Origin: Cyclobacteriaceae bacterium
GTDB taxonomy: Bacteria; Bacteroidota; Bacteroidia; Cytophagales; Cyclobacteriaceae
NCBI GenBank assembly: GCA_019638355.1
Contig: JAHBTY010000001.1
Location: forward strand, 930,001 to 994,000
DNA: 64,000 bases
Reading direction: 5' to 3'
The notes below the pieces were generated by a model. That model searched no databases. It was not told the origin of the DNA and worked only from the letters and a program-made list of their open reading frames with translations. The translations under genes and the position numbers were made by a program. Of this stretch, positions 30,409 through 56,592 are shown piece after piece. Position 1 is the stretch's first letter. Every line of letters begins with the position of its first letter.

Positions 30409-30969
30409 CTATGCCTTGATCCGCCCGTAGAGCCAGTTGATCAGGTAGGTCTTTGTCGCTTTATCATACCGAGTCAATTCGGTGTCTCTTGTGAACACCT
30501 CGTCAATCTTCTTTTGAAATTCGGGTTGATCTGAAAAAGCACGTTTGAGGTTTTCTTTCGTGAGCTTATTCACTTGACCTTCTATTCCCCGGCTGAACAT
30601 ATAGTGCAATTCACTTTGCTTGTGCGCCCTGATCTCGTGCTTGTATATGAGGATATATTCCGAAGGATTTAGAATGACGTAATTCACCTTATCGATAAAG
30701 CGATGAGGCACACCTTTACAGTCCTGATACCCAAATACCTCACTCTTTAGAAGGGTTATGACTGAATCGTTGTGAATTACTTTGACAAATTTTTGATCAC
30801 TAAAGCTCGTTTGCACGATCTTGTGTTTTTGCGTCTTGCAATTGATCGCATACGCCAATTTCTGTTGCTGAAAATCTGCGATTGTCAGATAAACCCCACT
30901 GCTGTCCTGCTGGGCATAAACCGTATTGAACAGCCCTAATAGACACCATAAAGAAAATACCGTTCTCAT
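30409..30969 (-). CDS. Secreted protein of an unrecognised family (relative of 44982-45551)
   Basis: A signal peptide ends at VYAQ (about residue 20). The 166-residue mature part shares a clear pattern with the gene at 44982-45551: SGVYLTIADFQQQK versus SGVYKTYNDYTNQK, INCKTQKHKI versus IDCKTEKHKI, VFGYQDCKG versus VFGYQLCDG, and a final ENLKRAFSDQPEFQKK versus ENLKKAFPNNHKFHDA. The C-terminal extension of the CzcA protein (52368-52952) is a more distant third member. It has two conserved cysteines and lies two bases from an outer-membrane barrel gene. The function is unknown. Confidence 0.65.
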   Translation of the reverse strand: MRTVFSLWCLLGLFNTVYAQQDSSGVYLTIADFQQQKLAYAINCKTQKHKIVQTSFSDQKFVKVIHNDSVITLLKSEVFGYQDCKGVPHRFIDKVNYVILNPSEYILIYKHEIRAHKQSELHYMFSRGIEGQVNKLTKENLKRAFSDQPEFQKKIDEVFTRDTELTRYDKATKTYLINWLYGRIKA

Positions 30970-39584: not shown

Positions 39585-41519
39585 TTATTCTTCAATATCT
39601 AATACTTTGAGCGTTCCGGTTTTTTTCAATTCATATTCCCTGACTACCTGGTAGAATACCGGTAGCACCACCAGCACGAAAATGGTAGAAGAGACCAGGC
39701 CGAACACAAATGGTATGGCAATGGGTTTCATCACATCACTGCCTGTGCCTGTAGAGATGAGTATCGGGATCAATCCCAGAATGTTAGCAAGCACGGTCAT
39801 CAGCAAGGGCCTTACACGCGGTACGGCACCTTCAAAAATTGAATCATGTAGATCTTGTTTTTCGATTGTCTCGTTTGAAGCTTTTTTTCTTTCCACCAAT
39901 CGCTTAATGGAGTCATTCATGTAAGCGATCATCAAAACTCCCGTCTCGACAGCCACTCCGAATAATGCGATAAATCCCACAGCTACGGCCACCGAAAAAT
40001 TTACGTTGTAGAAATACAATGAATAAACTCCGCCCACTAACGCGACCGGTACGCTCACAAAAACGATGATTACTTCCCGGAATGTGTGGAAGGTGATGTA
40101 TAAGATGATACCGATAACCAGCAGGGTAATAGGTATGATAATCATCAGTCTTTTTTCTGCACGTACTTGGTTTTCGTATTGCCCGCTCCACTGGATATAG
40201 TAGCCTTTTGGGAGTTTTTTAAATTGTGCATCGATTTTTGCTTTTGCCTCATTTACAACGCTTCCCATATCGCGGCCCCGCACATTGAACAACACTGTTC
40301 CACGAAGCCTGGTGTTTTCTGAATTAATCATGGGCGGTCCCTCTACTACTGTGATGTCGGCCAGCGCTGATAAGGGTACAACACCGTACGAAGATGTTTG
40401 TACTGGCACGCGCTTGATCTCATCCAAATCATTCCGGTAATCTTGTGCAAGTCTGACGGTAATAGTGAAACGCTCTCGTCCTTCCACTGTATTGGTCAGG
40501 ATCATGCCACCCAGGGCAGTTTCAATTACCATGTTTACGTCTTCTATGCTGAGAGCATAACGGGCAATAGCTTCGCGATTGATTTTTATGTTCAGGTATT
40601 TTCCCCCGGTGAGTTGCTCCAGGTAGAGGTCGGTTAGTCCGTCAATTCCTCTTAACGCTTTTTCAATTTCGGCTGTAAGGACGAATAACGAGTCAAGGTT
40701 TGAACCGAACACTTTCACACCAACGTCCGTGCGGATACCGGTTGAAAGCATGTTGATCCGGTTAATGATAGGCTGTGTCCATCCGACAACTACGCCAGGG
40801 ATACGAACACGCTCATCCATCTCTGCGATGAGTTTCTCTTTTGTCATCCCTTCTCTCCATTTTGATTTTGGTTTGAGTACGACAATGGTTTCAATCATAG
40901 CCATAGGAGAATTGTCGGTAGCGGTATAGGCACGTCCCGCCTTGCCCAGTACGTTTTCTACTTCAGGGATACTTTTTAATATGCGATCCTGTATTTGTAT
41001 TATTCGCTTAGCTTCAGCGTTAGAAACATCTGGTAAGGTGACAGGCATCATCAATAGCGAACCTTCATCCAAAGGCGGCATGAATTCAGTTCCAAGATTC
41101 AGTACAAAAGGTGTACTGCCGGCAACCAATACGAAGCAGATTGCGAGTGTTACATATTTGAATCGTTGACAAAGACGGATAACAGGTGTATAAATTCTCA
41201 CAAAGAAGTTCGACACGGGGTTACGGCTCTCCGGCACTAACCGTCCTTTTACAAATATTCTTGCCAGCATGGGCGAAACGGTGATGGCCAGCAAGGCGGC
41301 TCCTAGTAGTGAAAATGTTTTCGTCAATACCAGGGGAGTAAATAATTTGCTCTCCTGGCCAGTGAGAAAAAGTACCGGGGCAAATGATACGATCATAATG
41401 ATCACTGAGAAGAAGATAGATCGTCCCACTGTTTTAGATGATTCTTCTATTACAGTTACGCGTTCTTCATCCGGAATTTCCCGGGTGTGACCGATCCTTT
41501 GTTTTTCAGTTGTTTTCAT
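39585..41519 (-). CDS. CusA-type RND pump, C-terminal part (split gene)
   Basis: The 644-residue frame starts MKTTEKQRIGH and soon reaches the pump sequence that follows TM4 in intact CusA-like proteins (TVIEESSKTVGRSIFFSVII), then TM5-TM6, the second periplasmic porter domain and TM7-TM12. The end (FYQVVREYELKKTG) is normal. It overlaps the frame at 41506-42795 by 14 bases in another phase. Together the parts make one full pump, so this is either a frameshift in one gene or a pump made of two polypeptides, each starting at its own ATG. Confidence 0.85.
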   Translation of the reverse strand: MKTTEKQRIGHTREIPDEERVTVIEESSKTVGRSIFFSVIIMIVSFAPVLFLTGQESKLFTPLVLTKTFSLLGAALLAITVSPMLARIFVKGRLVPESRNPVSNFFVRIYTPVIRLCQRFKYVTLAICFVLVAGSTPFVLNLGTEFMPPLDEGSLLMMPVTLPDVSNAEAKRIIQIQDRILKSIPEVENVLGKAGRAYTATDNSPMAMIETIVVLKPKSKWREGMTKEKLIAEMDERVRIPGVVVGWTQPIINRINMLSTGIRTDVGVKVFGSNLDSLFVLTAEIEKALRGIDGLTDLYLEQLTGGKYLNIKINREAIARYALSIEDVNMVIETALGGMILTNTVEGRERFTITVRLAQDYRNDLDEIKRVPVQTSSYGVVPLSALADITVVEGPPMINSENTRLRGTVLFNVRGRDMGSVVNEAKAKIDAQFKKLPKGYYIQWSGQYENQVRAEKRLMIIIPITLLVIGIILYITFHTFREVIIVFVSVPVALVGGVYSLYFYNVNFSVAVAVGFIALFGVAVETGVLMIAYMNDSIKRLVERKKASNETIEKQDLHDSIFEGAVPRVRPLLMTVLANILGLIPILISTGTGSDVMKPIAIPFVFGLVSSTIFVLVVLPVFYQVVREYELKKTGTLKVLDIEE

Positions 41520-42795
41520 TGCTTTTGTTATTTTGTAGTACCCGGTTAGTCAGCGATCGGTAAGCATTTTCAGCCATTACAATTCCCGGATCAACGACAT
41601 CGCCAATCGCCAGTGCAATGCCACCCAACGACATGATGTTAGAGGTTACTCCGAAAACCTTCATCAGTATGAACCCTATCAGCACGGAGAGTAAAATAGA
41701 AGCTATGGCCACAAGGCCGCTGCGAACATGGAAGAGGAAGAGTACGACCACAATGGATACAATCAATATTTCCTGCCACAATGCTTCAGACAATGTGTTA
41801 ATGGAATCATCGATAAGTCCGCTGCGGTCATAGGCAACATGAAACTCAACACCTTCCGGAAGGCCCTTTTTAAATTCCTCTATTCGCACTTTTACGCGCT
41901 CAATAACGTCTTTAGCATTCTCGCCATAGCGCATCACGACAATTCCGCCAACCGCTTCACCTTCACCGTTTTCTTCGATTATTCCCAATCTTAATTCACC
42001 ACCCATTTGGATATGGGCAACATCTTTCAGCCTTATGGGGATAGAGCGGTACGTTCCTACAGAAATATTCTCAATATCTTCTGGTGTCTTGATGTAGCCG
42101 AGCCCACGGATCATGTACCCCATGTCGTTCATTTCAAAGAGACTGCCACCAACATCGCGGTTATTATTAACTACCGCTTTCGCCACATCCATTAGGGGCA
42201 CTCCATAATAGATGAGTTTATGGGGATCAATGGCTACCTGGTATTGCTTTTGAAATCCACCATAGGATGCCACTTCACTTACACCTGCCACATTTTGAAG
42301 GGCAAATTTTACGTACCAATCCTGAAGGGCGCGCAACTCACCGAGGTTGTAGCCATCTCCCTTTAACGTGTACCAGAATACGTGACCGATACCGGTGCCA
42401 TCGGGGCCCAGTGTTGGGGTAATGCCAGGTGGAAGAAACTTTTGTGCATAATTCAATCGCTCTAAAACGCGGGTGCGGGACCAGTATATCTCCGCATCAT
42501 CTTCGAAAATCACGAAGATGAAACTCATGCCGAACATGGATGCAGCACGAATGGTTTTTATTTTCGGAATACCTTGAAGGTTTGTGACCAGGGGATAGGT
42601 GATTTGGTCTTCGATAATCTGCGGATTCCTCCCCATCCATTCTGTGAACACGATAACCTGATTTTCGGATAGATCAGGAATAGCATCCACAGGAGTCTCT
42701 CTGATGGAATAGATCCCTCCGATAGTAATCATCACGATCCCGATCAGAACCATGAATCGATTGTGAATTGCCCAACTAATAATTTTTTCTACCAT
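41506..42795 (-). CDS. CusA-type RND pump, N-terminal part (split gene)
   Basis: The 429-residue frame begins as pumps do (MVEKIISWAIHNRFMVLIG), contains TM1, the first porter domain and TM2-TM4, with the proton-relay signature AIGDVVDPGIVMAEN. It ends right after ENAYRSL, in the cytoplasmic loop between TM4 and TM5. AIGxxxD resembles the Cu(I)/Ag(I) class, though the usual DAA is DPG here. A single-base change would join it to 39585-41519, with a loop of normal length. Confidence 0.85.
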   Translation of the reverse strand: MVEKIISWAIHNRFMVLIGIVMITIGGIYSIRETPVDAIPDLSENQVIVFTEWMGRNPQIIEDQITYPLVTNLQGIPKIKTIRAASMFGMSFIFVIFEDDAEIYWSRTRVLERLNYAQKFLPPGITPTLGPDGTGIGHVFWYTLKGDGYNLGELRALQDWYVKFALQNVAGVSEVASYGGFQKQYQVAIDPHKLIYYGVPLMDVAKAVVNNNRDVGGSLFEMNDMGYMIRGLGYIKTPEDIENISVGTYRSIPIRLKDVAHIQMGGELRLGIIEENGEGEAVGGIVVMRYGENAKDVIERVKVRIEEFKKGLPEGVEFHVAYDRSGLIDDSINTLSEALWQEILIVSIVVVLFLFHVRSGLVAIASILLSVLIGFILMKVFGVTSNIMSLGGIALAIGDVVDPGIVMAENAYRSLTNRVLQNNKSNENN

Positions 42796-44981: not shown

Positions 44982-45551
44982 TTAGTTTCTGGACATTTCC
45001 AACAAATGATTGACCTTCGATTTCTTATGAAAGCTATCAAATGAAGCTAGTTCTGCATCGTTCTTAAATTGCGCGGTCAAGGCATCGTGAAATTTATGAT
45101 TATTGGGAAATGCTTTCTTCAGGTTCTCCATAGTAAGAATTATAGGTTTTTCACCAGCAACGCTAAAGAAATTTAGATTCGGTTCAGGTGATCCTTTGGG
45201 CGATTTTACCATCAACTTCTTATAGAGCCACACATCCCCTTTTTCAGTCAGGTGATAATCTGTGTTATCTACAAAACGTACAAAATTTCCGTCACAAAGT
45301 TGGTAGCCAAAAACGCTGTCTTTGGCCATTTGGTGTGGTTTGCCATCGTGTATTACCGTAATGAATGATTTGTTTGGAAATTCATTTAGCTTGATTTTAT
45401 GTTTTTCGGTTTTGCAATCAATGCCGAAAGTGATTTTTTGGTTAGTATAGTCATTATAGGTTTTGTACACTCCACTGATAATGGTTTGCGCAAAGCCCGG
45501 GAGACTTAATGTAAGGAAAAGAGAGACAAGCAAGAGGTTTTTCGTTTTCAT
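44982..45551 (-). CDS. Secreted protein of an unrecognised family (relative of 30409-30969)
   Basis: ATG 45551 starts a clean signal peptide (LLLVSLFLTLSLPGFAQ); the frame can be read up to 45596 but that adds an unlikely tail. The mature part of about 165 residues has the same order of motifs as the protein at 30409-30969: SGVYKTYNDYTNQK, IDCKTEKHKI, VFGYQLCDG, ENLKKAFPNNHKFHDA. It forms a pair with the Gly-repeat protein downstream. The CzcA C-terminal extension is a third, more distant relative. Confidence 0.65.
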   Translation of the reverse strand: MKTKNLLLVSLFLTLSLPGFAQTIISGVYKTYNDYTNQKITFGIDCKTEKHKIKLNEFPNKSFITVIHDGKPHQMAKDSVFGYQLCDGNFVRFVDNTDYHLTEKGDVWLYKKLMVKSPKGSPEPNLNFFSVAGEKPIILTMENLKKAFPNNHKFHDALTAQFKNDAELASFDSFHKKSKVNHLLEMSRN

Positions 45552-46074
45552 AATAGTCAAAAGTTTAAGGTTTAAGGTTGGTTTAAAAATGTTCATTGGT
45601 AAGTGCGAGTCAATATGCTATGTCCATGCTACTTATATAATCTTGGCAATGTTTTATACTTAATTGGTAATACTCAGTCAACTTGTTGATCAAGCAAGTC
45701 ACTGAATAAAACAAGGTATTCAACCTAGGGTAAAAATCAAGCCATATTGTTGTAAATATCTACGGAATCGATTTAGATACGGTTAAAAAATACCCATATG
45801 CTATAAAGATTGTGTAGTTTTTAAAAATGTTACACTCGAAATTGATCGGTATTCGGAGCACACATCCTTATGGTAGTCTTACTCTTTTGAATCTTATTTA
45901 ACACGCTGGATATTGTAATACTCACGGAGCTAAAATTTTGTGAAGGACGAAATAACCTTACGAAACCTTCAAAGGCTGCCGAATGTCAACATTACATTTG
46001 ACAATAATCATGAAATGCCATACCGTAAAGTGAAAACTTTCGAGTGTGTATGACGTATTAAGAGTAGATTCAGA
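45552..46074. other. 523-base divergent intergenic region
   Basis: This AT-rich stretch separates a minus-strand gene pair from a plus-strand gene. A possible -7 element TACATTTG lies at 45993-46000 for the plus-strand gene, without a convincing -33 element. I see no further gene, RNA hairpin with T-run, or repeat. Confidence 0.4.
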
Positions 46075-46916: not shown

Positions 46917-48887
46917 TTAAAACCTCATCCGCTGAATCCGCACAGCATTTAAAATCGCCAATAATGCCACACCCACATCAGCAAAAACGGCTTCCCACAT
47001 GGTTGCCAATCCACCGGCACCGAGAGCCATCACAATTACTTTTACTCCAAAAGCCAGTGCGATGTTTTGCCAAACAATTTGGTTAGTCGCTTTACCAATC
47101 TTGATCGCGGTTACAATTTTTGATGGCTGATCGGTCTGAATCACGACATCTGCTGTTTCAATCGCGGCATCACTTCCTAATCCTCCCATTGCAATCCCTA
47201 CATCGCTTATGGCAAGTACAGGCGCATCGTTGATCCCGTCCCCTACAAAGGCAATGGGCTCTTTCTTACCTGCTTTGATTTCCTCCACTTTCATCACCTT
47301 GTGTTCTGGCAGCAGGTCGCCATGTGCCTGGTCGATATTTAACGCTTTGGCTATTTTATTTGCAACAACCTGCTTGTCGCCACTCAGCATCACTGTTTTC
47401 AATTTAGAAGCATGCATTTGCCGGATAGCTTCCTTACTGTCTTCCTTCAATTCGTCAGCAATGGTGATGTACCCCGCAAAGGTTCCATTCACGGACGCGA
47501 CTACAATGCTATCGGTGATTGTGCGAACTTCTTCGGTAACAGCAACTCCGAATTTATCGAGCAGCCTGACGTTACCGGCCAGGACTTGCTTTCCATTGAC
47601 AGTCCCCTTAAGGCCATGCCCCTTGATTTCCTCTATGTCGCTGACCTGAAGATTTTCAAAATTACTGTCAGCATATTCCACAACAGCTTTGGCAATGGGA
47701 TGGGTTGACTGAGATTCAAGTGCGGCTATCAACGGAACCCATTCCTTTTGGTCTAACGGACCCTCAACTTTTTGAACTTTAAATACACCCTTGGTTAGTG
47801 TTCCGGTTTTATCCATCACGATGGTATCAACCCGCGTCATCAAGTCAAGATAGTTTGAACCTTTGAAGAGAATTCCGTTACGCGAACCGGCACCGATGCC
47901 GCCAAAATATCCGAGCGGAATAGCAACAACCAGCGCACAAGGACAAGAAATCACCAGGAAGATAAGGGCGCGATAGAGCCAGTCATTAAAAACATAATTG
48001 TCAACAAAGAAGTATGGCAGTAAGGTCAGTGCAAGTGCAAGAAAAACAACTATGGGTGTATATACCCGTGCAAACTTCCGGATAAACAACTCAGTTTTCG
48101 CTTTTCGTCCAGTCGCATTTTGCACCAGCGTGAGGATTCTGGCCAGCGAACTTTCATTAAACAGTTTCGTGACTTTCACTTCAACTACTTTTTGTTCATT
48201 GATCATGCCAGCCAGAACCGTTTCTCCTTTATCAATGGACTTTGGTTTGCTTTCACCCGTAAGGGCAGCGGTGTTAAAGGAACTACCGTCACTCAACATT
48301 TCTCCATCAAGAGGAACACGTTCACCTACTTTTATCTGGATCGTTTCGCCAACAACTACGTTCGTTGGATCAACTTCATCAAACTTTCCATTTCGAAAAA
48401 CATTGGCTGTATCAGGTCGCATATCCATCAACGCTTTGATGCTTCGTTTGGCTTTATTCACCGCAGCATCTTGAAAAAGTTCGCCCACGGCATAGAAAAG
48501 CATAACAGCGACACCTTCCGGATATTCACCAATGTAAAATGCACCAAGGGTAGCGATGCTCATCAGAATAAACTCGGTAAACATATCGCCTCTAAAAGCA
48601 ATGCGAATTCCTTTGAACAAAACCGGTAGCCCTACTGGCACGTAAGCAACAGCATACCAGGCAAACCGAACTGTTTTTTCAAACCACGAGGGTTGTATCC
48701 AATTATCCAGTACCAAACCCGCAGCCAATAAAATGAAACTTGCAATAGCAGACAGCCATTCCCTGCTAATGCCTGATTCACTTTCAGTCTGTTTGGATTG
48801 TGTGTTTTTGTTTTGATTAACAGCATTCAGATCCGGTGTGCAGCAAGTATCGTCTGATTGAATGTTTGTATGTTGATGGTTAGTCAT
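46917..48887 (-). CDS. Zn/Cd/Pb-type P1B ATPase (CadA/ZntA-like)
   Basis: The 656-residue pump has the CPC motif of heavy-metal ATPases (ISCPCALVVAIPLG), the phosphorylation site MDKTGTLTKG and the hinge GDGINDAPVL. The last helix carries the Asp of the Zn(II)/Cd(II) group (FADVGVALLAILNAVR). There is no HMA domain; the N-terminus instead has a DDTCCTPD stretch and several His. It likely exports Zn, Cd or Pb into the periplasm, where the CzcCBA pump of the same operon takes over. It is the last gene of that operon. Confidence 0.9.
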   Translation of the reverse strand: MTNHQHTNIQSDDTCCTPDLNAVNQNKNTQSKQTESESGISREWLSAIASFILLAAGLVLDNWIQPSWFEKTVRFAWYAVAYVPVGLPVLFKGIRIAFRGDMFTEFILMSIATLGAFYIGEYPEGVAVMLFYAVGELFQDAAVNKAKRSIKALMDMRPDTANVFRNGKFDEVDPTNVVVGETIQIKVGERVPLDGEMLSDGSSFNTAALTGESKPKSIDKGETVLAGMINEQKVVEVKVTKLFNESSLARILTLVQNATGRKAKTELFIRKFARVYTPIVVFLALALTLLPYFFVDNYVFNDWLYRALIFLVISCPCALVVAIPLGYFGGIGAGSRNGILFKGSNYLDLMTRVDTIVMDKTGTLTKGVFKVQKVEGPLDQKEWVPLIAALESQSTHPIAKAVVEYADSNFENLQVSDIEEIKGHGLKGTVNGKQVLAGNVRLLDKFGVAVTEEVRTITDSIVVASVNGTFAGYITIADELKEDSKEAIRQMHASKLKTVMLSGDKQVVANKIAKALNIDQAHGDLLPEHKVMKVEEIKAGKKEPIAFVGDGINDAPVLAISDVGIAMGGLGSDAAIETADVVIQTDQPSKIVTAIKIGKATNQIVWQNIALAFGVKVIVMALGAGGLATMWEAVFADVGVALLAILNAVRIQRMRF

Positions 48888-48897
48888 AAATGAAAAG

Positions 48898-49509
48898 TTA
48901 ATGAATGAAAAATGAAAGGATACCTGTCAACACCAGCGTAATGCCTGTTATGACTCCTGCATTGTGTTCAAGAGTGTGCCAGTTAAGTTTGAGTAGTCCT
49001 CTATAGGTTATGCTAACCCAAATTACCATACCGCTTACGGTAACAAGGGTATAAAGAATTGCCAGCAGTGTAACCATCCACCAACCGCTTGTACCAGCCA
49101 TCAGGAAGTAGGCTTCAATTTCAAAACAGGGTGAAAAGAACATAGCCACCACCAGGCTGAAGATTACTTTGTTATCAGAGACAATTTCTTTGTGCCGGTG
49201 CAGGTGAAAATGTTTGTGCTTGTGATGTTGATAGATGTAGAAAATACCCAAAGCCGTTAATACCGCGGGGGCAATATAAGCAGCGAAGTACTCCACATTA
49301 GCGGCCAACTGAAAACCCGTTACACCAATGATAACACCAATGAGCACCGTGCTTAAGGCGTGTGATAGTCCTGCAATAAATGTAACCTTTGTGGTTTGCT
49401 GCATCGACCAGTTTTCCTTTTTGGCGATGGCGAGTACAGGCAACCAATGGTTGGGAATCAGTGCGTGAAGTACACTCAGAATCAAACTTCCTACAATGAG
49501 CGTAATCAT
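48898..49509 (-). CDS. Six-helix membrane transporter with His-rich loop
   Basis: The 203-residue protein has about six helices. It opens LHALIPNHWLPVLAIAKK, and has the GLSHALSTVLIGV helix and a His-rich cytoplasmic loop (HHKHKHFHLHRHK). The pattern is that of the NiCoT/HupE/UreH-like group of small metal permeases, though family assignment by eye is uncertain. It overlaps the DUF3703 gene by four bases and lies 10 bases before the CadA-type gene. Confidence 0.6.
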   Translation of the reverse strand: MITLIVGSLILSVLHALIPNHWLPVLAIAKKENWSMQQTTKVTFIAGLSHALSTVLIGVIIGVTGFQLAANVEYFAAYIAPAVLTALGIFYIYQHHKHKHFHLHRHKEIVSDNKVIFSLVVAMFFSPCFEIEAYFLMAGTSGWWMVTLLAILYTLVTVSGMVIWVSITYRGLLKLNWHTLEHNAGVITGITLVLTGILSFFIH

Positions 49510-49880
49510 CCTTTAGTGTGATAGGGTTTTAATATAGCTTGAAGGTCGTCCGGGATTTCCATCGGACGTAATGGTGGTACGTTAGCCCCACCCGTGTTGC
49601 CCACAGGAATAGTGCCCACAAATGATTTGACACCACCGACAAATAAACGCGGTATTTGCCCGACAATCTCTCTCACATCCTTTATACGAAAGCCAAACTT
49701 GAGCATAACCCAATGAACATGCGAATGCTCTCGCGGCCAAGGCTGACCAAGAATATGCGCACGTTCCAGATGTCGCCATGCATCTTGAAGGTTGCCTTTG
49801 TCAAGCTCAGTTTTATAGAGTTCCAGTTCCCCACGGTAATGAATCTTCAAGCCGTCAGGCATACTCCAGTAGAGTTTCAT
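49506..49880 (-). CDS. DUF3703-like protein
   Basis: The 124-residue soluble protein has the AWRHLERAHILGQPWPREHS and HVHWVMLKFGFR segments that I associate with DUF3703. These proteins are often encoded beside metal efflux genes and contain conserved His residues; no role is proven. The gene lies 10 bases downstream of the czcB-type gene and is part of the eleven-gene operon. Confidence 0.7.
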   Translation of the reverse strand: MKLYWSMPDGLKIHYRGELELYKTELDKGNLQDAWRHLERAHILGQPWPREHSHVHWVMLKFGFRIKDVREIVGQIPRLFVGGVKSFVGTIPVGNTGGANVPPLRPMEIPDDLQAILKPYHTKG

Positions 49881-49889
49881 ATTTAAAGT

Positions 49890-51125
49890 TTAATGTCCGT
49901 GTCCTTCCTCTTCGCTATTTTTCATTTTCGAAAGGATGGCATATGCGCCTTTCACTACCACTTCATTTTCATTGTTCCATCCCTCTGGTAAAATTACTTC
50001 TGTGTACCCTAATTCGCTATTGCCCACTACTATCTCCTGCATCATAAAGTGCTGTCCTTCCTCCTTGTGTTCACCACCTTCTTCGGACCCTTCCTTCGTT
50101 TGATTTTCTTCGTCATCTCCGTGCCCTTCTTCAGTTTTAATAAAGACATATTTCTTTCCCTGAAAATCAATAATGGCTTCGTTGGGTAATGCCGTTACGG
50201 CTGTACCCCCCGTTTCTACGATAGCCTTCAGGTACATGCCCGGCAATAAGTCTTTGTCTTCCTTGTCGATGTGGCAGTGAATGCGAATTGTTCTGTCCGC
50301 GCTGATCTCTCTTCCAATCAGGTACACAGTTGCCATCCGTTCTTTGGTTTCATTGGCCAGCGTGAATCGGACTTTTTGCCCGATCTTAATTTTACGAACG
50401 TCCTTTTCAAAAATAATTAACTCTGCATGAAGGTGTTCGGTGTCCACGATTTCAAAAAGTATGTCGCTGGGGTTAACAAATTTTCCGATGTTGACATTTA
50501 CTTCCGTTACGAATCCATTTATAGTTGAATATATGTTTGACGTACTGGAGATCGTGCCTGCCTCCAGCGAGGTCATGTCAACATTGATTAGTTTGAGCTT
50601 GGCAAGCAACCCGTTCTTCTTCGCCAACCAACTTTGATAGGTCGTCTTTGCCTGCTGCAATGTTTTTTGTGCATTTACATTTTCCTTGGCAAGTTCCTGC
50701 TGGCGTTCATAGTCGGCATACGCAAAATCGAACTGATTTTTCGCTTCCAGGTAGTCTTGTTGCAATTGAATGTATTCGGGGTTTTCAATTACGGCAATCA
50801 CTTGCCCTTTGGTAACTCTCGAACCCTGAAGCAACACCGTACTTTTGAGAAATCCACCCAAAGGAGCGGATACGCTTACCATCTGTTGTGGCGGAACATC
50901 CAGCATACCATTAACCTTGATGGTTCCGCTGATTTGCTTTTGCTCTACTTTACCGAGTTCAATGCCAGCGGTCTTTATCTGTTTATCGGTAAGTTCCGCT
51001 GTGTTCTCCGCTTCATCGTGGTGCTCTTCCTCTATTGCTTCAGTACTGGCATTGCCACAGGATATCACCAGGGCCGTTACCGTAGACAAGAGTAAGAGTG
51101 CAAATAATTTATGTATGTTTTTCAT
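49890..51125 (-). CDS. CzcB-type RND periplasmic adaptor
   Basis: The 411-residue lipoprotein (lipobox VISC) has an acidic His-containing N-terminus (EEEHHDEAENTAEL), the usual adaptor core (SAPLGGFLKSTVLLQGSRV, GFVTEVNVNIGKFV), and an added C-terminal segment rich in Glu and His (EGSEEGGEHKEEGQH) with a final HGH. The extra His and Glu suggest Zn/Co/Cd binding, in line with the CzcA-type pump. It lies 9 bases after the TolC-type gene, within the operon. Confidence 0.9.
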   Translation of the reverse strand: MKNIHKLFALLLLSTVTALVISCGNASTEAIEEEHHDEAENTAELTDKQIKTAGIELGKVEQKQISGTIKVNGMLDVPPQQMVSVSAPLGGFLKSTVLLQGSRVTKGQVIAVIENPEYIQLQQDYLEAKNQFDFAYADYERQQELAKENVNAQKTLQQAKTTYQSWLAKKNGLLAKLKLINVDMTSLEAGTISSTSNIYSTINGFVTEVNVNIGKFVNPSDILFEIVDTEHLHAELIIFEKDVRKIKIGQKVRFTLANETKERMATVYLIGREISADRTIRIHCHIDKEDKDLLPGMYLKAIVETGGTAVTALPNEAIIDFQGKKYVFIKTEEGHGDDEENQTKEGSEEGGEHKEEGQHFMMQEIVVGNSELGYTEVILPEGWNNENEVVVKGAYAILSKMKNSEEEGHGH

Positions 51126-51134
51126 GTTGTTCTG

Positions 51135-52364
51135 TTATTTATTGCCTGACAAGAATTCAATGTAAATAATGGACTGGTTGTAATCGTTCAGCGTCTGGAG
51201 ATGCCCTTCTTTAATAGCAATTGCCTTTTGAACACCTAGTAAATATTCTGCGTAACCTATCTCGCCATTTTTAAAAGCTGTTTGCGACTGTTTTAGAATC
51301 AGCTCTGCATTGGGTAATGCTGAGGTAGTATAATAGTACAGACTGTTTTTGTTCTTGGCATACTCCTGTATGGCCTGTTGATATTGACCTTGCAGTGTTT
51401 TATAGTAGTACTGATAGTTACTCTCTGCCGACTGGCGATTATATTCGGCAGCCCTTACTCTTCCCTGATGAGGAACAAACCATACCGGAATAGCCAACCC
51501 CACCTGAAAGCCTGTGAAGCGATCACTTGAAGTAGCAATTGCTCCAGATTCAGTATCTTGAACACCATTTAATGTTTGTGTAAAGAAACCCAGTAGAATT
51601 TCAGGAGCGGCCTTTGCTGATTCTACTTTCTTCACATCTTTGGCCACCTGTACTTGTTGACGCATGTAGGAAGTTGATGGGTTGGATTGAATAGCCGCAC
51701 TATCTGGTGTGTTAGTAAAGGAAACTTTGTTCAACTCCATATTTACAATGTCTGGTAGTTCATTGCTGTTAATGAGCGTTTTCAGTTGCGTGCGAACGAC
51801 CACCTGATCAGTTATATTTTTTGCCAGCATGTTCTTTACTTCGTTGCGCTGCGATTCGGCTGTGGTCTTTTCCAGCAAATTAGCTTCCCCTGTTTTATAA
51901 CGAAGAGATGCAACTTTCAAAAAACCTTCGTAGATGCTGTCTTGTTGCTGGAGCAACTCCTGTCTTGCTTTGAGAAACGCCAATTGATAGCAGACCTGTT
52001 TCACCTGGAAAACTAATTCGTTCTCAGTCGCGGCCTTCTTCAATTCACTTGATACCATAAGCGACCGGTTCAACGCACTTTGGCTACCAAAAGCGGTGAA
52101 GGGAATCGTTTGTGTTACCGTCAGGTTATTATCATTTTTTGAATAGCTGTTGTACTGACCATAGAGCAACGACACGTTTGTCTTTGGAAGATCAAAACCC
52201 GTTTTCTTCAAAGCTCTTTGCGATTCTACGTTATACGTCTCAGTTCGGACACTGCCATTATTTTTTAAAGCTGTTTCAATAGCTTGTTCCAGAGGAAGCA
52301 ATTGCTGCGAGCTTCCTAAAAAGGTAATGAGCAGGAATAGTGTTACTAAAAAATATTTCTTCAT
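51135..52364 (-). CDS. CzcC/TolC-type outer-membrane factor
   Basis: The 409-residue protein has a signal peptide (TLFLLITFLGSSQQ) and the two-fold repeat of long coiled helices and short strands typical of TolC-family channels (LEQAIETALKNNGSVRTET; GFQVGLAIPVWFVPHQGRVR). It completes the CzcCBA envelope-spanning pump. It starts three bases after the CzcA stop. No other outer-membrane factor is in the window. Confidence 0.88.
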   Translation of the reverse strand: MKKYFLVTLFLLITFLGSSQQLLPLEQAIETALKNNGSVRTETYNVESQRALKKTGFDLPKTNVSLLYGQYNSYSKNDNNLTVTQTIPFTAFGSQSALNRSLMVSSELKKAATENELVFQVKQVCYQLAFLKARQELLQQQDSIYEGFLKVASLRYKTGEANLLEKTTAESQRNEVKNMLAKNITDQVVVRTQLKTLINSNELPDIVNMELNKVSFTNTPDSAAIQSNPSTSYMRQQVQVAKDVKKVESAKAAPEILLGFFTQTLNGVQDTESGAIATSSDRFTGFQVGLAIPVWFVPHQGRVRAAEYNRQSAESNYQYYYKTLQGQYQQAIQEYAKNKNSLYYYTTSALPNAELILKQSQTAFKNGEIGYAEYLLGVQKAIAIKEGHLQTLNDYNQSIIYIEFLSGNK

Positions 52365-52367
52365 GGC

Positions 52368-52952
52368 TTATAGATTAGAATCGCAGTAAAGTTTATTGAA
52401 TAGCACCCTTCCGGACGACCTCTCGCTTGTATACAGTGATGGATAATAGGATTTAAAAACGTCTTTTACATTCTGAACAAACTTGGGCTTGTCTGCAAAA
52501 TCCTTCCGAATGGGGTTCATCCACAGATGCTGAATGGGTGAATCCAAATCTCTGCTGTAGTAGTAATTCAATCCTCGTCCGCTCTTGTAATGATAAACTC
52601 GTTTGGAGTATGTAACCAGGCACGAATCGTCCAGCACTTTATAGTAGCCGTAGGATTTGAAAAAACCTTTCTCTCCGAAAGCCCTGTAGCGTTCTGAGCC
52701 GATGCTGTATCCGCCAAGTGTTCCGTATTTGATAGTAAGGTTTTCATCAATTCCGCGGATCGCGAGTTTTGCATTGGGCGTTTCTTTGACCACATCTTTG
52801 CAATCGTTCACACGAATAACTTTAAAAGGCTTATTCTTAACAAAGTCCTCGTGTGTTGAATACAATTTCACCTCTTTGATTCCCTCTTGTGCCTGGGTAG
52901 CAACACCTACCGAAAGCAAAACCGGGATTAAAATGAATCTGATTGTTTTCAT
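52368..52952 (-). other. Extension domain of CzcA, or internal cistron
   Basis: ATG 52952 opens a 194-residue frame within the CzcA frame. It begins with a typical signal peptide (about 22 residues, ending ATQAQ) and has the family pattern of the secreted proteins at 30409 and 44982: KLYSTHEDFVKNK, then LGGYSIGSERYRAFGEKGFF, then a late RKDFADKPKFVQNVKDVF. The bases before ATG are A/T-rich without a strong Shine-Dalgarno site, so internal initiation cannot be excluded. As no stop lies between, at least some product must be fused. Confidence 0.6.
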
Positions 52953-55900
52953 AGGAATATTAATTTTTTCTAAATAGATATAAAGACAGGGGAGTACGAT
53001 CAATGTCAACACCGTTGAACTGATTAGCCCCCCGATTACAACAGTAGCCAGCGGCTTCTGTACTTCGGCACCTGCACTGGTAGCCAATGCCATGGGCAAA
53101 AAGCCAAGCGATGCAACAGCGGCAGTCATCAATACCGGGCGAAGACGAATTTGCGTTCCCTTTCTTACGATGTCGTACAAATCAGTAAGCCCTGATTTTT
53201 TCAGGCGATTGAATTCGGCTATCAATACAATACCATTGAGTACGGCCACACCAAACAGGGCGATGAACCCGATACCTGCTGAAATGCTGAAGGGCATTCC
53301 GCGCAATAGCAAAGCGAACACACCTCCAATGGCTGCCATTGGTATTGCCATAAAAATGAGAATGGATTGTTTAAACGAACCGAAGGTGAAAAAAAGTAAC
53401 AGTAAAATCAGTAATAAGGCGACCGGTACAGCAATCGAGAGTCTTGCTTGCGCTTCTTTCAGGTTTTCAAATTGTCCTCCATACGTTGGATAATATCCTG
53501 GAGGAAAATCAATTTGTTTTTCTATTTTTTGCTGAAGTTCCTCTACGATACTGGCTACATCTCGGCCGCGCACGTTGAAGCCTATAATGATTCTACGCTT
53601 AGCATCTTCACGTTGTATTTGGTTCGGGCCAAGTTTGAATTCAACCTTAGCAACCTGATCAAGCGGAACCTGGTTTCCGGTTGGCGTTGTAATAAACAGG
53701 TTCTGTACGTCTTCGATGCCCTGGCGATTTTCTTTTGTTAACCTGACTACAAGATCAAAACGTTTTTCTCCTTCATACACAACACCCGCACTTTGTCCAG
53801 CAAAGGCGGTGCTGATCGCCTGATTAATGGTTTCAATATCCAGTCCAAATCGGGCTACTTCATCACGGTCAATATGCACAACTATTTGAGGCAGGCCCGT
53901 AACTTCTTCCACGTATAAGTCACGCGCACCTTCAACACCGGAGGCAATGCCTGCTACTTGTTTTGATAAACCGGTCAATACATCGAGATCCTCACCAAAT
54001 ATTTTTACAGCAACATCCTGCCGTACACCGGAGATCAATTCGTTGAAACGCATTTGTATGGGTTGCTGAAATCCAAATGTTACTCCTGGTATTGCTTCCA
54101 ATGCTTCGCCCATCTTTTCTGCAAGTTCCTCGCGGTTATCAGCCTTTTTCCATTCGCCTTTATCTTTCAGAATCACCATTAAATCACATGCTTCAATGGG
54201 CATGGGGTCGGTAGGGATTTCACCTGCACCGATTTTACTTACTACTTCTTTTACTTCGTCTGGAAAATCACGAATGAGTATTTCTCCGGCCTTTAAAGAA
54301 GCATCAATTGTATGCGTAAGACTACTGCCGGTAAGCACACGGGTTTCCACAGCAAAGTCGCCCTCCTCCAGTGTGGGAATAAATTCACCACCCATGGTTA
54401 AGAACAGGAATAAACTACCAATGAAAAGAGCAATCGCGATCATAACCACCAGCATCTTTCTTTTCAATGCTCCATTGATGATGGGCAGATACAGACGCTG
54501 AAAGAAGTCCATCATCTTGTCAGAAAAATTACGCTTATGTTGTGGGTTCTTGCTCAGGAAGAGTGCCGACATCATGGGCACATAGGTCAATGAGAGGATG
54601 AAAGCACCAAGTATGGCAAAACTTACAGTCTGCGCCATAGGCTTGAACATTTTTCCTTCAATGCCTACAAGCGCAAGTATCGGTAAGTAAACAATCAGGA
54701 TAATGATTTCACCAAACGCTGCCGAGTTTCTAATTTTCGATGCAGATTCATACACTTCAATATCCATTTCCCCTTGCGTCATTCTGCGTGAAATACTTCT
54801 GATACCGAGGTGGTGCATCGTTGCTTCTACTATAATTACTGCACCGTCCACAATCAAACCAAAGTCAATGGCTCCGAGGCTCATTAAATTTCCGGAAACG
54901 CCAAATACATGCATGAGCGAAACGGCAAACAACATGGCGAGTGGAATTACCGAGGCCACAATTAACCCGGCTCTCAGGTTGCCAAGAAAAAGTACTAACA
55001 CCACAATCACAATCAACGCACCTTCTATCAGGTTTTTCTCCACCGTTCCAATAGCGCGATTCACCAAATTGCTGCGATCGAGAAATGGTTCAATGACCAC
55101 ACCTTCGGGCAGAGTCTTTTTGATTTGCTCCATGCGTTCTTTTACCCGCTCAACAACAGCATTGGAGTTTTCACCTTTCAACATTAAAACAAGCGCACCC
55201 ACCACTTCACCCTCGTTGTTGTAGGTCATGGCACCATACCGGTTTGCGGCTCCAAAGCGTACCTCCGCCACATTGCGAATTAGTATAGGAACACCAGCGG
55301 ATGTGTTCTTCACTACAATCTTTCCGATGTCATCAATGGAACTGATTAAACCTTCGCTACGGATAAACCAGGCATTTGGCTTTTTGTCGATATACGCTCC
55401 ACCTGTGTTTTGATTGTTCCTTTCAAGCGCTGTGAAAACATCTGTAATACTCAGGTTATAACTTCTTAGTTTATCGGGATCTAAGGCGACTTCATATTGT
55501 TTCAGAAAACCACCAAAGCTGCTAACGTCCGCCACACCCGGTGTACCGAGCAACTGTCTTCTCACAATCCAGTCCTGAATGGTTCGCAGTTCGGCAGCAT
55601 CGTACTTTTCCTCGTATCCCTTTTCCGGGCGAATGAGGTATTGATAGATTTCACCAAGACCAGTAGTGATAGGAGCCATCTCCGGATTTCCGATTCCAGC
55701 GGGTATCTGATTTCGGGCTTCTGCCAGGCGTTCATTTACCTGCTGCCTTGCCCAAAACACATCGATGTTATCATGAAAAACAATGGTGACTACGGAGAGA
55801 CCGAAACGTGATATACTCCGGATTTCTTTTATCTCCGGTATAGTAGCCATCGTTTGCTCCACGGGAAAACTAATGAGCCGCTCCACCTCCTGTCCGGCCA

Positions 55901-56066
55901 GTGAGGGACTCAGCGTGATGACCTGTACCTGATTGTTGGTAATATCAGGTACAGCATCAATGGGCAACTGCGTGAGCGAGTAAGTTCCCCACGCGGCCAA
56001 TGCCAGCGTGAACAAACCGATCACCAGTTTATGCTTTATTGAGTATTGAATGATCTTGTCTAACAT
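52368..56066 (-). CDS. czcA: CzcA-type RND pump fused in frame to a secreted-type C-terminal domain
   Basis: From ATG 56066 (the frame reads on to 56207 but MLDKIIQYSIKHK is the normal pump start) the product has 1,232 residues. The first 1,038 form a complete RND pump of the heavy-metal class; TM4 carries DFGLIVDGAVIIVE, the signature of Zn/Co/Cd exporters. The pump ends at a usual C-terminus (LYIYLEKINIP) and without a stop continues into MKTIRFILIPVLLSVG. That begins a 194-residue segment with its own signal-peptide-like helix, related to 30409-30969 and 44982-45551. Pumps end after TM12 inside the cell; a thirteenth helix would place the domain in the periplasm. Confidence 0.88.
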   Translation of the reverse strand: MLDKIIQYSIKHKLVIGLFTLALAAWGTYSLTQLPIDAVPDITNNQVQVITLSPSLAGQEVERLISFPVEQTMATIPEIKEIRSISRFGLSVVTIVFHDNIDVFWARQQVNERLAEARNQIPAGIGNPEMAPITTGLGEIYQYLIRPEKGYEEKYDAAELRTIQDWIVRRQLLGTPGVADVSSFGGFLKQYEVALDPDKLRSYNLSITDVFTALERNNQNTGGAYIDKKPNAWFIRSEGLISSIDDIGKIVVKNTSAGVPILIRNVAEVRFGAANRYGAMTYNNEGEVVGALVLMLKGENSNAVVERVKERMEQIKKTLPEGVVIEPFLDRSNLVNRAIGTVEKNLIEGALIVIVVLVLFLGNLRAGLIVASVIPLAMLFAVSLMHVFGVSGNLMSLGAIDFGLIVDGAVIIVEATMHHLGIRSISRRMTQGEMDIEVYESASKIRNSAAFGEIIILIVYLPILALVGIEGKMFKPMAQTVSFAILGAFILSLTYVPMMSALFLSKNPQHKRNFSDKMMDFFQRLYLPIINGALKRKMLVVMIAIALFIGSLFLFLTMGGEFIPTLEEGDFAVETRVLTGSSLTHTIDASLKAGEILIRDFPDEVKEVVSKIGAGEIPTDPMPIEACDLMVILKDKGEWKKADNREELAEKMGEALEAIPGVTFGFQQPIQMRFNELISGVRQDVAVKIFGEDLDVLTGLSKQVAGIASGVEGARDLYVEEVTGLPQIVVHIDRDEVARFGLDIETINQAISTAFAGQSAGVVYEGEKRFDLVVRLTKENRQGIEDVQNLFITTPTGNQVPLDQVAKVEFKLGPNQIQREDAKRRIIIGFNVRGRDVASIVEELQQKIEKQIDFPPGYYPTYGGQFENLKEAQARLSIAVPVALLLILLLLFFTFGSFKQSILIFMAIPMAAIGGVFALLLRGMPFSISAGIGFIALFGVAVLNGIVLIAEFNRLKKSGLTDLYDIVRKGTQIRLRPVLMTAAVASLGFLPMALATSAGAEVQKPLATVVIGGLISSTVLTLIVLPCLYIYLEKINIPMKTIRFILIPVLLSVGVATQAQEGIKEVKLYSTHEDFVKNKPFKVIRVNDCKDVVKETPNAKLAIRGIDENLTIKYGTLGGYSIGSERYRAFGEKGFFKSYGYYKVLDDSCLVTYSKRVYHYKSGRGLNYYYSRDLDSPIQHLWMNPIRKDFADKPKFVQNVKDVFKSYYPSLYTSERSSGRVLFNKLYCDSNL

Positions 56067-56268: not shown

Positions 56269-56592
56269 TTAAGCAAGTTTAGGCGGCTGCCAGATATTCG
56301 ATGCATTAACCAATATCGGTTTTTCGAAATAAAGCGTTGTTAATTTGGTGTTATGAACCAGCACCGCAAATGAAATGTCGGCAACTGGATTAAGTTGAAT
56401 GTGCGCTGCACAGCAGGCACAAATGCAGAAGGGAGTGCATTGGTCAACCTCACTATTGGTATGGTCATGATCAGTAACGGAAACGAATGTTATGTTCGCT
56501 TTGCGCTCATCCGTACACGTTTCCTTGTCGTTGCAGGGATAAACCGCCAACGCAAGAACGTACATGGTGAAAAGAAAGCGTATCACTCTCAT
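56269..56592 (-). CDS. DUF6660-like small secreted protein
   Basis: The 107-residue product has a signal peptide, then ACPCNDKE-like start (YPCNDKETCTD), His residues (TDHDHTNS), a cysteine cluster CTPFCICACCAAH and the final IWQPPKLA. This is what I know as DUF6660, a Bacteroidota family often beside CusA/CzcA genes. The Cys/His-rich middle part suggests metal binding. It is 68 bases upstream of the 41-residue peptide gene. Confidence 0.7.
   Translation of the reverse strand: MRVIRFLFTMYVLALAVYPCNDKETCTDERKANITFVSVTDHDHTNSEVDQCTPFCICACCAAHIQLNPVADISFAVLVHNTKLTTLYFEKPILVNASNIWQPPKLA

Follow-up and report, generated by a model that had tools for sequence, protein, structure and literature searches.

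What does a cell make when a complete metal pump gene runs on, without a stop codon, into what looks like a separate exported protein? The question is raised by a gene in a 64,000-nucleotide stretch of DNA from a Cyclobacteriaceae bacterium (GCA_019638355.1, contig JAHBTY010000001.1, positions 930,001 to 994,000), referred to here as the window. The frame, 56066-52368 (-), is uninterrupted from ATG 56066 to the stop codon at 52370-52368 and specifies 1,232 residues. It encodes a full CzcA-type pump of the heavy-metal efflux resistance-nodulation-division (HME-RND) class, followed by a secreted-type segment. An earlier reading of the letters alone (the sequence-only reading) had described one open frame through both parts, and this observation is genuine. 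Judging from the comparisons below, the gene probably encodes a pump-partner polyprotein, with an internal cleavable signal peptide and an accessory partner in metal efflux.

The pump part (residues 1-1038; 52953-56066, -) is by its sequence an ordinary HME-RND protein, and metal export is predicted for it. Its Pfam ACR_tran match covers residues 5-1032 of the fused protein (E 7.6e-288). The CusA/CzcA family model TIGR00914 scores 1198.2 bits against a cut-off of 701.45, over residues 1-1031 and model positions 1-1034 of 1051. These matches bear out the earlier description of a full pump with a normal C-terminus. A charged DFG-x3-DGA motif in the fourth helix is a mark of CzcA/CusA HME-RND pumps, and it is found in the pump translation as DFGLIVDGAVIIVE.

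Past the last pump helix the chain reads ...LYIYLEKINIP, then MKTIRFILIPVLLSVGVATQA^QEGIKEV..., and then the domain. Residue 1039 is ATG 52952, which is in frame with the pump, with no stop codon in between, and opens a 194-residue segment (MKTIRFILIPVLLSVGVATQAQEG...). This begins with an internal signal-peptide-like stretch (52890-52952, -), recognised from its sequence and from the same make-up in other fusions, with cleavage predicted at A^Q. The C-terminal secreted domain follows (52371-52889, -), seen in an alignment of 10 fused sequences and predicted by AlphaFold2 to have a mixed beta/alpha fold, with a mean pLDDT (the per-residue confidence score) of 87.6 for 52371-52886. The stop codon (52368-52370, -) closes the frame. 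The attached part is not TolC, as no OEP match to the 1,232-residue protein was found at E 0.1.

The open junction is kept in 11 further records, making 12 fused records with the window. They come from Cyclobacteriaceae metagenome-assembled genomes (MAGs), Fulvivirgaceae JP3-4, a Flammeovirgaceae MAG, an uncultured Chitinophaga and two named strains, Chryseotalea sanaruensis Ys and Ohtaekwangia koreensis DSM 25262. The fused domains of the other records are 32-91% identical to that of the window. Pump and domain lie whole in a single full-length frame in 10 of the 12; the exceptions are L144, which ends at a contig edge, and L142, whose upstream pump part is split over two frames. The 12 records are not all independent, because the domains of L143 and L144 are identical, which leaves 11 distinct domain sequences, and those of L141 and L142 differ at 4 of 172 positions. 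A domain search of 58 genomes (the window's own and relatives) gave a match in five, four of them in frames of 1,236-1,287 residues and the fifth (G014) in a separate 228-residue frame. Scanning a public collection of species genomes gave 12 loci, 11 fused and one separate (the G014 protein again), a scan that favours fused loci because its single search pattern was derived from fused members.

The ratio of nonsynonymous to synonymous divergence (dN/dS) is 0.21, 0.09 and 0.12 for the domain in three pairs, and 0.03 for the pump. By this measure the fused domain is evidently under purifying selection. In a separate observation, synonymous divergence between L140 (8001-8516) and the window (52371-52886) is 0.218 in the domain and 0.956 in the adjoining pump, a contrast that suggests recombination inside the operon.

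Is a C-terminal extension exceptional for such a pump? A search for the pump covered 148 genomes of the family, with at most five candidates scored per genome. Among the matches listed, 107 of the 148 genomes have one at E 1e-150. Again among the matches listed, 132 are full-length (at least 50% identity): 30 are in frames of up to 1,120 residues, 4 in frames of 1,220-1,290, 2 in frames of 1,300-1,350 and 96 in frames of at least 1,420. Tails were sampled from 22 of these 96 and from the two frames of 1,317 and 1,341 residues, and every one of the 24 has an OEP/TolC match (e.g., L124, L127, L152-L171). CzcA-TolC fused frames are known from database annotation; among the titles and abstract openings listed in literature searches, none was on CzcA-TolC frames or on the pump-domain fusion. 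C-terminal fusion itself is thus common for CzcA of this family. CzcA-TolC frames are the majority class among the matches listed, and they share the internal-signal-peptide-like C-terminal fusion. The sequence-only reading had taken an extension of this type as a departure from known pumps, a view that does not survive the comparison. The unusual feature is the identity of the attached domain, not the fact that something follows the pump behind a signal-like helix.

The stretch after the last pump helix was compared in the 12 domain fusions and the 24 TolC fusions. In all 36 junctions the linker plus hydrophobic stretch is net positive, and the last residue of the hydrophobic stretch is A, G or S, with Q coming next (36/36, with the script set for [AGS]Q). 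Counted from the first such pair, the -3 residue is small or short aliphatic in 12/12 domain fusions and 22/24 TolC junctions. For junctions and pump segments alike, the end of the hydrophobic stretch was then defined by a single matched rule. With this rule, [AGSVTIL]x[AGS]Q is present in 36/36 junctions, whereas it is present in only 9/302 hydrophobic segments inside the pump parts. The looser [AGS]Q gives 36/36 against 31/302, and the stricter [AGS]x[AGS]Q gives 21/36 against 6/302; a smaller earlier control set had given 1/100. A^Q is a usual signal peptidase I site in Bacteroidota. It also occurs in several stand-alone homologues of the domain (e.g., ...VYAQQ and ...GFAQT). The earlier claim of a signal-peptide-like helix at the start of the segment therefore stands, with a hydrophobic stretch and small-x-small^Q in 36/36 junctions.

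Start codons provide another clue. In L149 (O. koreensis), in-frame ATG, GTG and TTG are all absent from the last pump helix to the end of the hydrophobic stretch. In L145, the lone in-frame start is a GTG where the hydrophobic stretch begins. Because these two records have no start codon or only a GTG, their domain would hardly be made except through the pump.

Does the attached domain belong to a known family? With the domain of the fused protein, nothing above cut-off was found in Pfam or NCBIfam (best E 0.057 and 0.052), the window protein has no PHROG match at E 0.1, and sequence and fold searches of the PDB gave no confident fold match. Among 27 stand-alone members, the best Pfam E was 0.016, with each such family in one member, and NCBIfam gave none at E 0.01. 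The attached family has no name in the libraries searched. The window itself encodes two stand-alone secreted homologues, at 44982-45596 (-; profile match E 7.4e-6) and 30409-30969 (-; E 2.3e-9). Profiles built from fused members only and from stand-alone members only align with 99.4% probability over 159 columns (hhalign, E 7.7e-22). On this profile evidence the domain is homologous along its whole length to the secreted family of 30409-30969 and 44982-45596. Ten fused domains, once aligned, have 16 invariant columns, with no invariant Met or Cys. Profile matches occur in 19/62 genomes of the genus and 20/390 of the order, fused ones counted, and the separate family frames are 147-266 residues long. 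With the fused-only profile, 8/395 genomes of the phylum match, the window's own being the sole fused one.

Stand-alone members tend to lie near metal exporters. The surroundings of the genus and order matches, excluding the window's own two, make up 39 stand-alone loci. An RND pump or P-type ATPase is present at 24 of these versus 1/20 preset controls (an RND pump), on stretches that vary from 3.4 to 19.9 kb and with a query from a metal pump that may favour such loci. Four more of the 39 have two-component genes only. With near-copies grouped, 12/24 groups have an RND pump or P-type ATPase versus 1/20 (Fisher p 0.0011). A third stand-alone copy, on another contig of the genome (L064, G000 contig 5), lies among genes for an RND pump, an adaptor, a response regulator and a histidine kinase. 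In L064 and L073 alike, the homologue sits between the pump plus adaptor and the response regulator plus histidine kinase, which hints at a role in metal sensing.

How did the fusion arise? None of 12 unfused loci, with pump identity of 67-82%, turned out to have a separate cistron for the domain behind the pump; the domain is therefore either fused or missing at the pump loci examined. In 8 of the 12, the frame that comes next has its first Met ahead of the pump stop, and in five the overlap is 4 bases. On a tree of 25 pumps (10 domain-fused, 12 unfused and 3 TolC-fused), the domain-fused label has to change 4 times, and well-supported branches force at least 3 of these changes. The tree of the domains themselves, with 38 sequences, has a branch (support 95/91, recovered in 96% of bootstrap trees) that separates the 10 fused domains from all the others. 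Both trees have midpoint roots, and the branches leading to several stand-alone rows are long. The simplest reading of the two trees is that one old fusion was followed by losses or transfers.

How might the fused protein work? Translation would continue from the complete CzcA pump through a short cationic cytoplasmic linker into the domain. The cytoplasmic C-terminus of RND pumps is established for the family, and because of it the linker would lie inside, the hydrophobic stretch would run outward and the domain would be periplasmic. The Sec machinery would insert this last hydrophobic stretch across the membrane, signal peptidase I would cut at A^Q, and the domain of about 172 residues would end up in the periplasm. 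Pump and partner would then be made at a fixed 1:1 ratio, and the partner may serve the CzcABC-type system in assembly, gating or sensing. Cleavage of the internal signal peptide and release of the domain are likely, because the A^Q site is conserved and TolC uses the same kind of junction. That the domain is an accessory factor in metal efflux seems, on balance, to be the better guess, because its family is associated with metal exporters. Perhaps this lineage of Bacteroidota routinely makes HME-RND pumps as polyproteins from which an internal signal peptide is cut, with TolC the common passenger and the rarer one a previously undescribed secreted family that forms a new accessory subunit of metal efflux. 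The chances of this wider proposal being right are about even.

What if the junction helix is not cut? The sequence-only reading had the hydrophobic stretch remain as a thirteenth transmembrane helix that displays the domain in the periplasm beside the adaptor and TolC partners. The periplasmic destination is supported, since the hydrophobic stretch lies behind a cationic linker and the domain would be periplasmic either way. Permanent display also fits with the domain being kept in the pump's frame in the records found. What it does not account for is the signal-peptidase-like site after the hydrophobic stretch, present in 36/36 junctions against 9/302 pump segments. In addition, 24 of these junctions lead into TolC, and a TolC attached in this way would presumably have to be set free before it could arrive in the outer membrane. 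Display on a thirteenth helix is therefore possible but unlikely, and an internal cleavable signal peptide is favoured over it on these patterns.

Another way to obtain a free domain would be separate initiation at ATG 52952, with the read-through fusion minor or incidental. This ATG sits where a normal signal peptide would begin, and an ATG occurs in the linker of 9/12 fused records, although at varying positions. However, a ribosome finishing the pump meets no stop, 3/12 records have no linker ATG, and L149 has no start codon of any kind. That the domain is made mainly in this way is decidedly improbable. Still less can be said for an assembly or sequencing error, or for the possibility, allowed for by the sequence-only reading, that two cistrons recently lost the stop codon between them. 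Beyond the bare possibility, nothing was found in favour of it. Comparison of the relatives' junctions goes the other way: the frame is open in 11 more records, which include isolates as well as MAGs and whose domains are 32-91% identical to the window's; the 12 unfused relatives have no domain near the pump, and none has a separate domain cistron behind it; and the fused domains group together on one branch (95/91). The conserved open frame and a domain dN/dS of 0.09-0.21 exclude a sequencing error or a fresh stop loss, and the chance of such an origin is negligible.

Nevertheless, several observations sit uneasily with a cleaved polyprotein that delivers a metal-efflux partner. At the junction, the first [AGS]Q is preceded by a large -3 residue in 2/24 TolC fusions, the 34 junction codons have dN/dS of 0.09, 0.17 and 0.47 in three pairs, so that one is weakly constrained, and the ATG somewhere in the linker of 9/12 domain fusions makes separate initiation possible there. 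As for function, nothing in the 16 columns that are invariant among the fused domains points to a metal-binding cluster, 11/39 stand-alone loci have none of the genes sought, and an RND pump or P-type ATPase is present in just 12 of the 24 stand-alone groups. The fusion is also rare, found in 5/62 genomes of the genus (profile search) and in 1/395 sampled genomes of the phylum, the window's own. Finally, the domain was not found in about 10 kb around the pump at the 12 unfused loci (best tblastn E 1.8), and with 12 such relatives it is dispensable in evolution.

How does the proposed polyprotein compare with known systems? Like CzcA/CusA HME pumps (TIGR00914), it has a full-length pump part with separate TolC and adaptor genes downstream; unlike them, the frame adds a signal-peptide-like segment and a secreted domain of about 172 residues. 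CzcA-TolC frames, mostly of about 1,420-1,520 residues, also carry a secreted partner behind a signal-peptide-like segment and A/G/S^Q, but the window's TolC is a separate gene and its attached part belongs to a family without a name. A more distant parallel is the FbcH cytochrome b/c1 precursor of Bradyrhizobium, in which a membrane protein and its periplasmic partner are made as one chain and an internal signal sequence is cut. The proposed pump and partner would share this arrangement, although the proteins are unrelated and cleavage is established for FbcH, whereas it is predicted for the window protein. CusF is described as a small periplasmic chaperone of the Cus system that works with an HME-RND pump (PMC8277102). 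The window domain is likewise predicted to be a small periplasmic protein accompanying such a pump. However, CusF is not among the rows of the domain's PDB sequence and fold searches, and the fused domains have no invariant Met or Cys.

HME-RND efflux gains a new candidate accessory subunit in this domain, and the fusion links a nameless secreted protein family to metal export. It also suggests that internal signal peptides are a bacterial means to make efflux-pump parts as polyproteins. The fusion is open to direct testing because it is carried by O. koreensis DSM 25262 and C. sanaruensis Ys.

The outer membrane factor and adaptor genes that mark an HME-RND operon lie directly downstream of the fused frame: a separate TolC-type gene at 51135-52364 (-; OEP E 1.7e-26) and a CzcB-type periplasmic adaptor at 49890-51125 (-; HlyD_D23 E 1.1e-29). 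The adaptor scores 123 bits with TIGR01730 (cut-off 94.9) and 127 bits with TIGR00999 (CzcB/NccB), under the cut-off of 319. They are followed by a DUF3703 protein at 49506-49880 (-; E 9.8e-45), a protein with a weak MntP-like match only at 48898-49509 (-; 15.2 bits, cut-off 24.4) and a P-type ATPase at 46917-48887 (-; E1-E2_ATPase E 4.7e-47). All five have the direction of the fused gene. Just upstream of the pump is a small DUF6660 protein (56269-56592, -; E 1.6e-9, 38.5 bits, cut-off 27), Cys-rich and with a signal-like start. By eye, comparable small frames precede the pump in several relatives. Nascent exported copper sensors, which reportedly exist, come to mind.

A second RND pump in the window is encoded by two overlapping genes, 39585-41519 and 41506-42795 (-), of 429 and 644 residues. 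The two halves match ACR_tran 1-420 and 417-1021, and the split point is presumably between helices 4 and 5. Overlapping split frames occur in 6/7 related loci (L062, L071, L072, L079, L090 and L099); the seventh, L063, has an N at the split position and reads as a single frame. The two frames share 14 bases in the window as well as in L079 and L090, whereas in L062 and L099 they share 23 bases, by first Met. The split at 39585-42795 appears to be no error but a conserved division of an RND pump over two cistrons.

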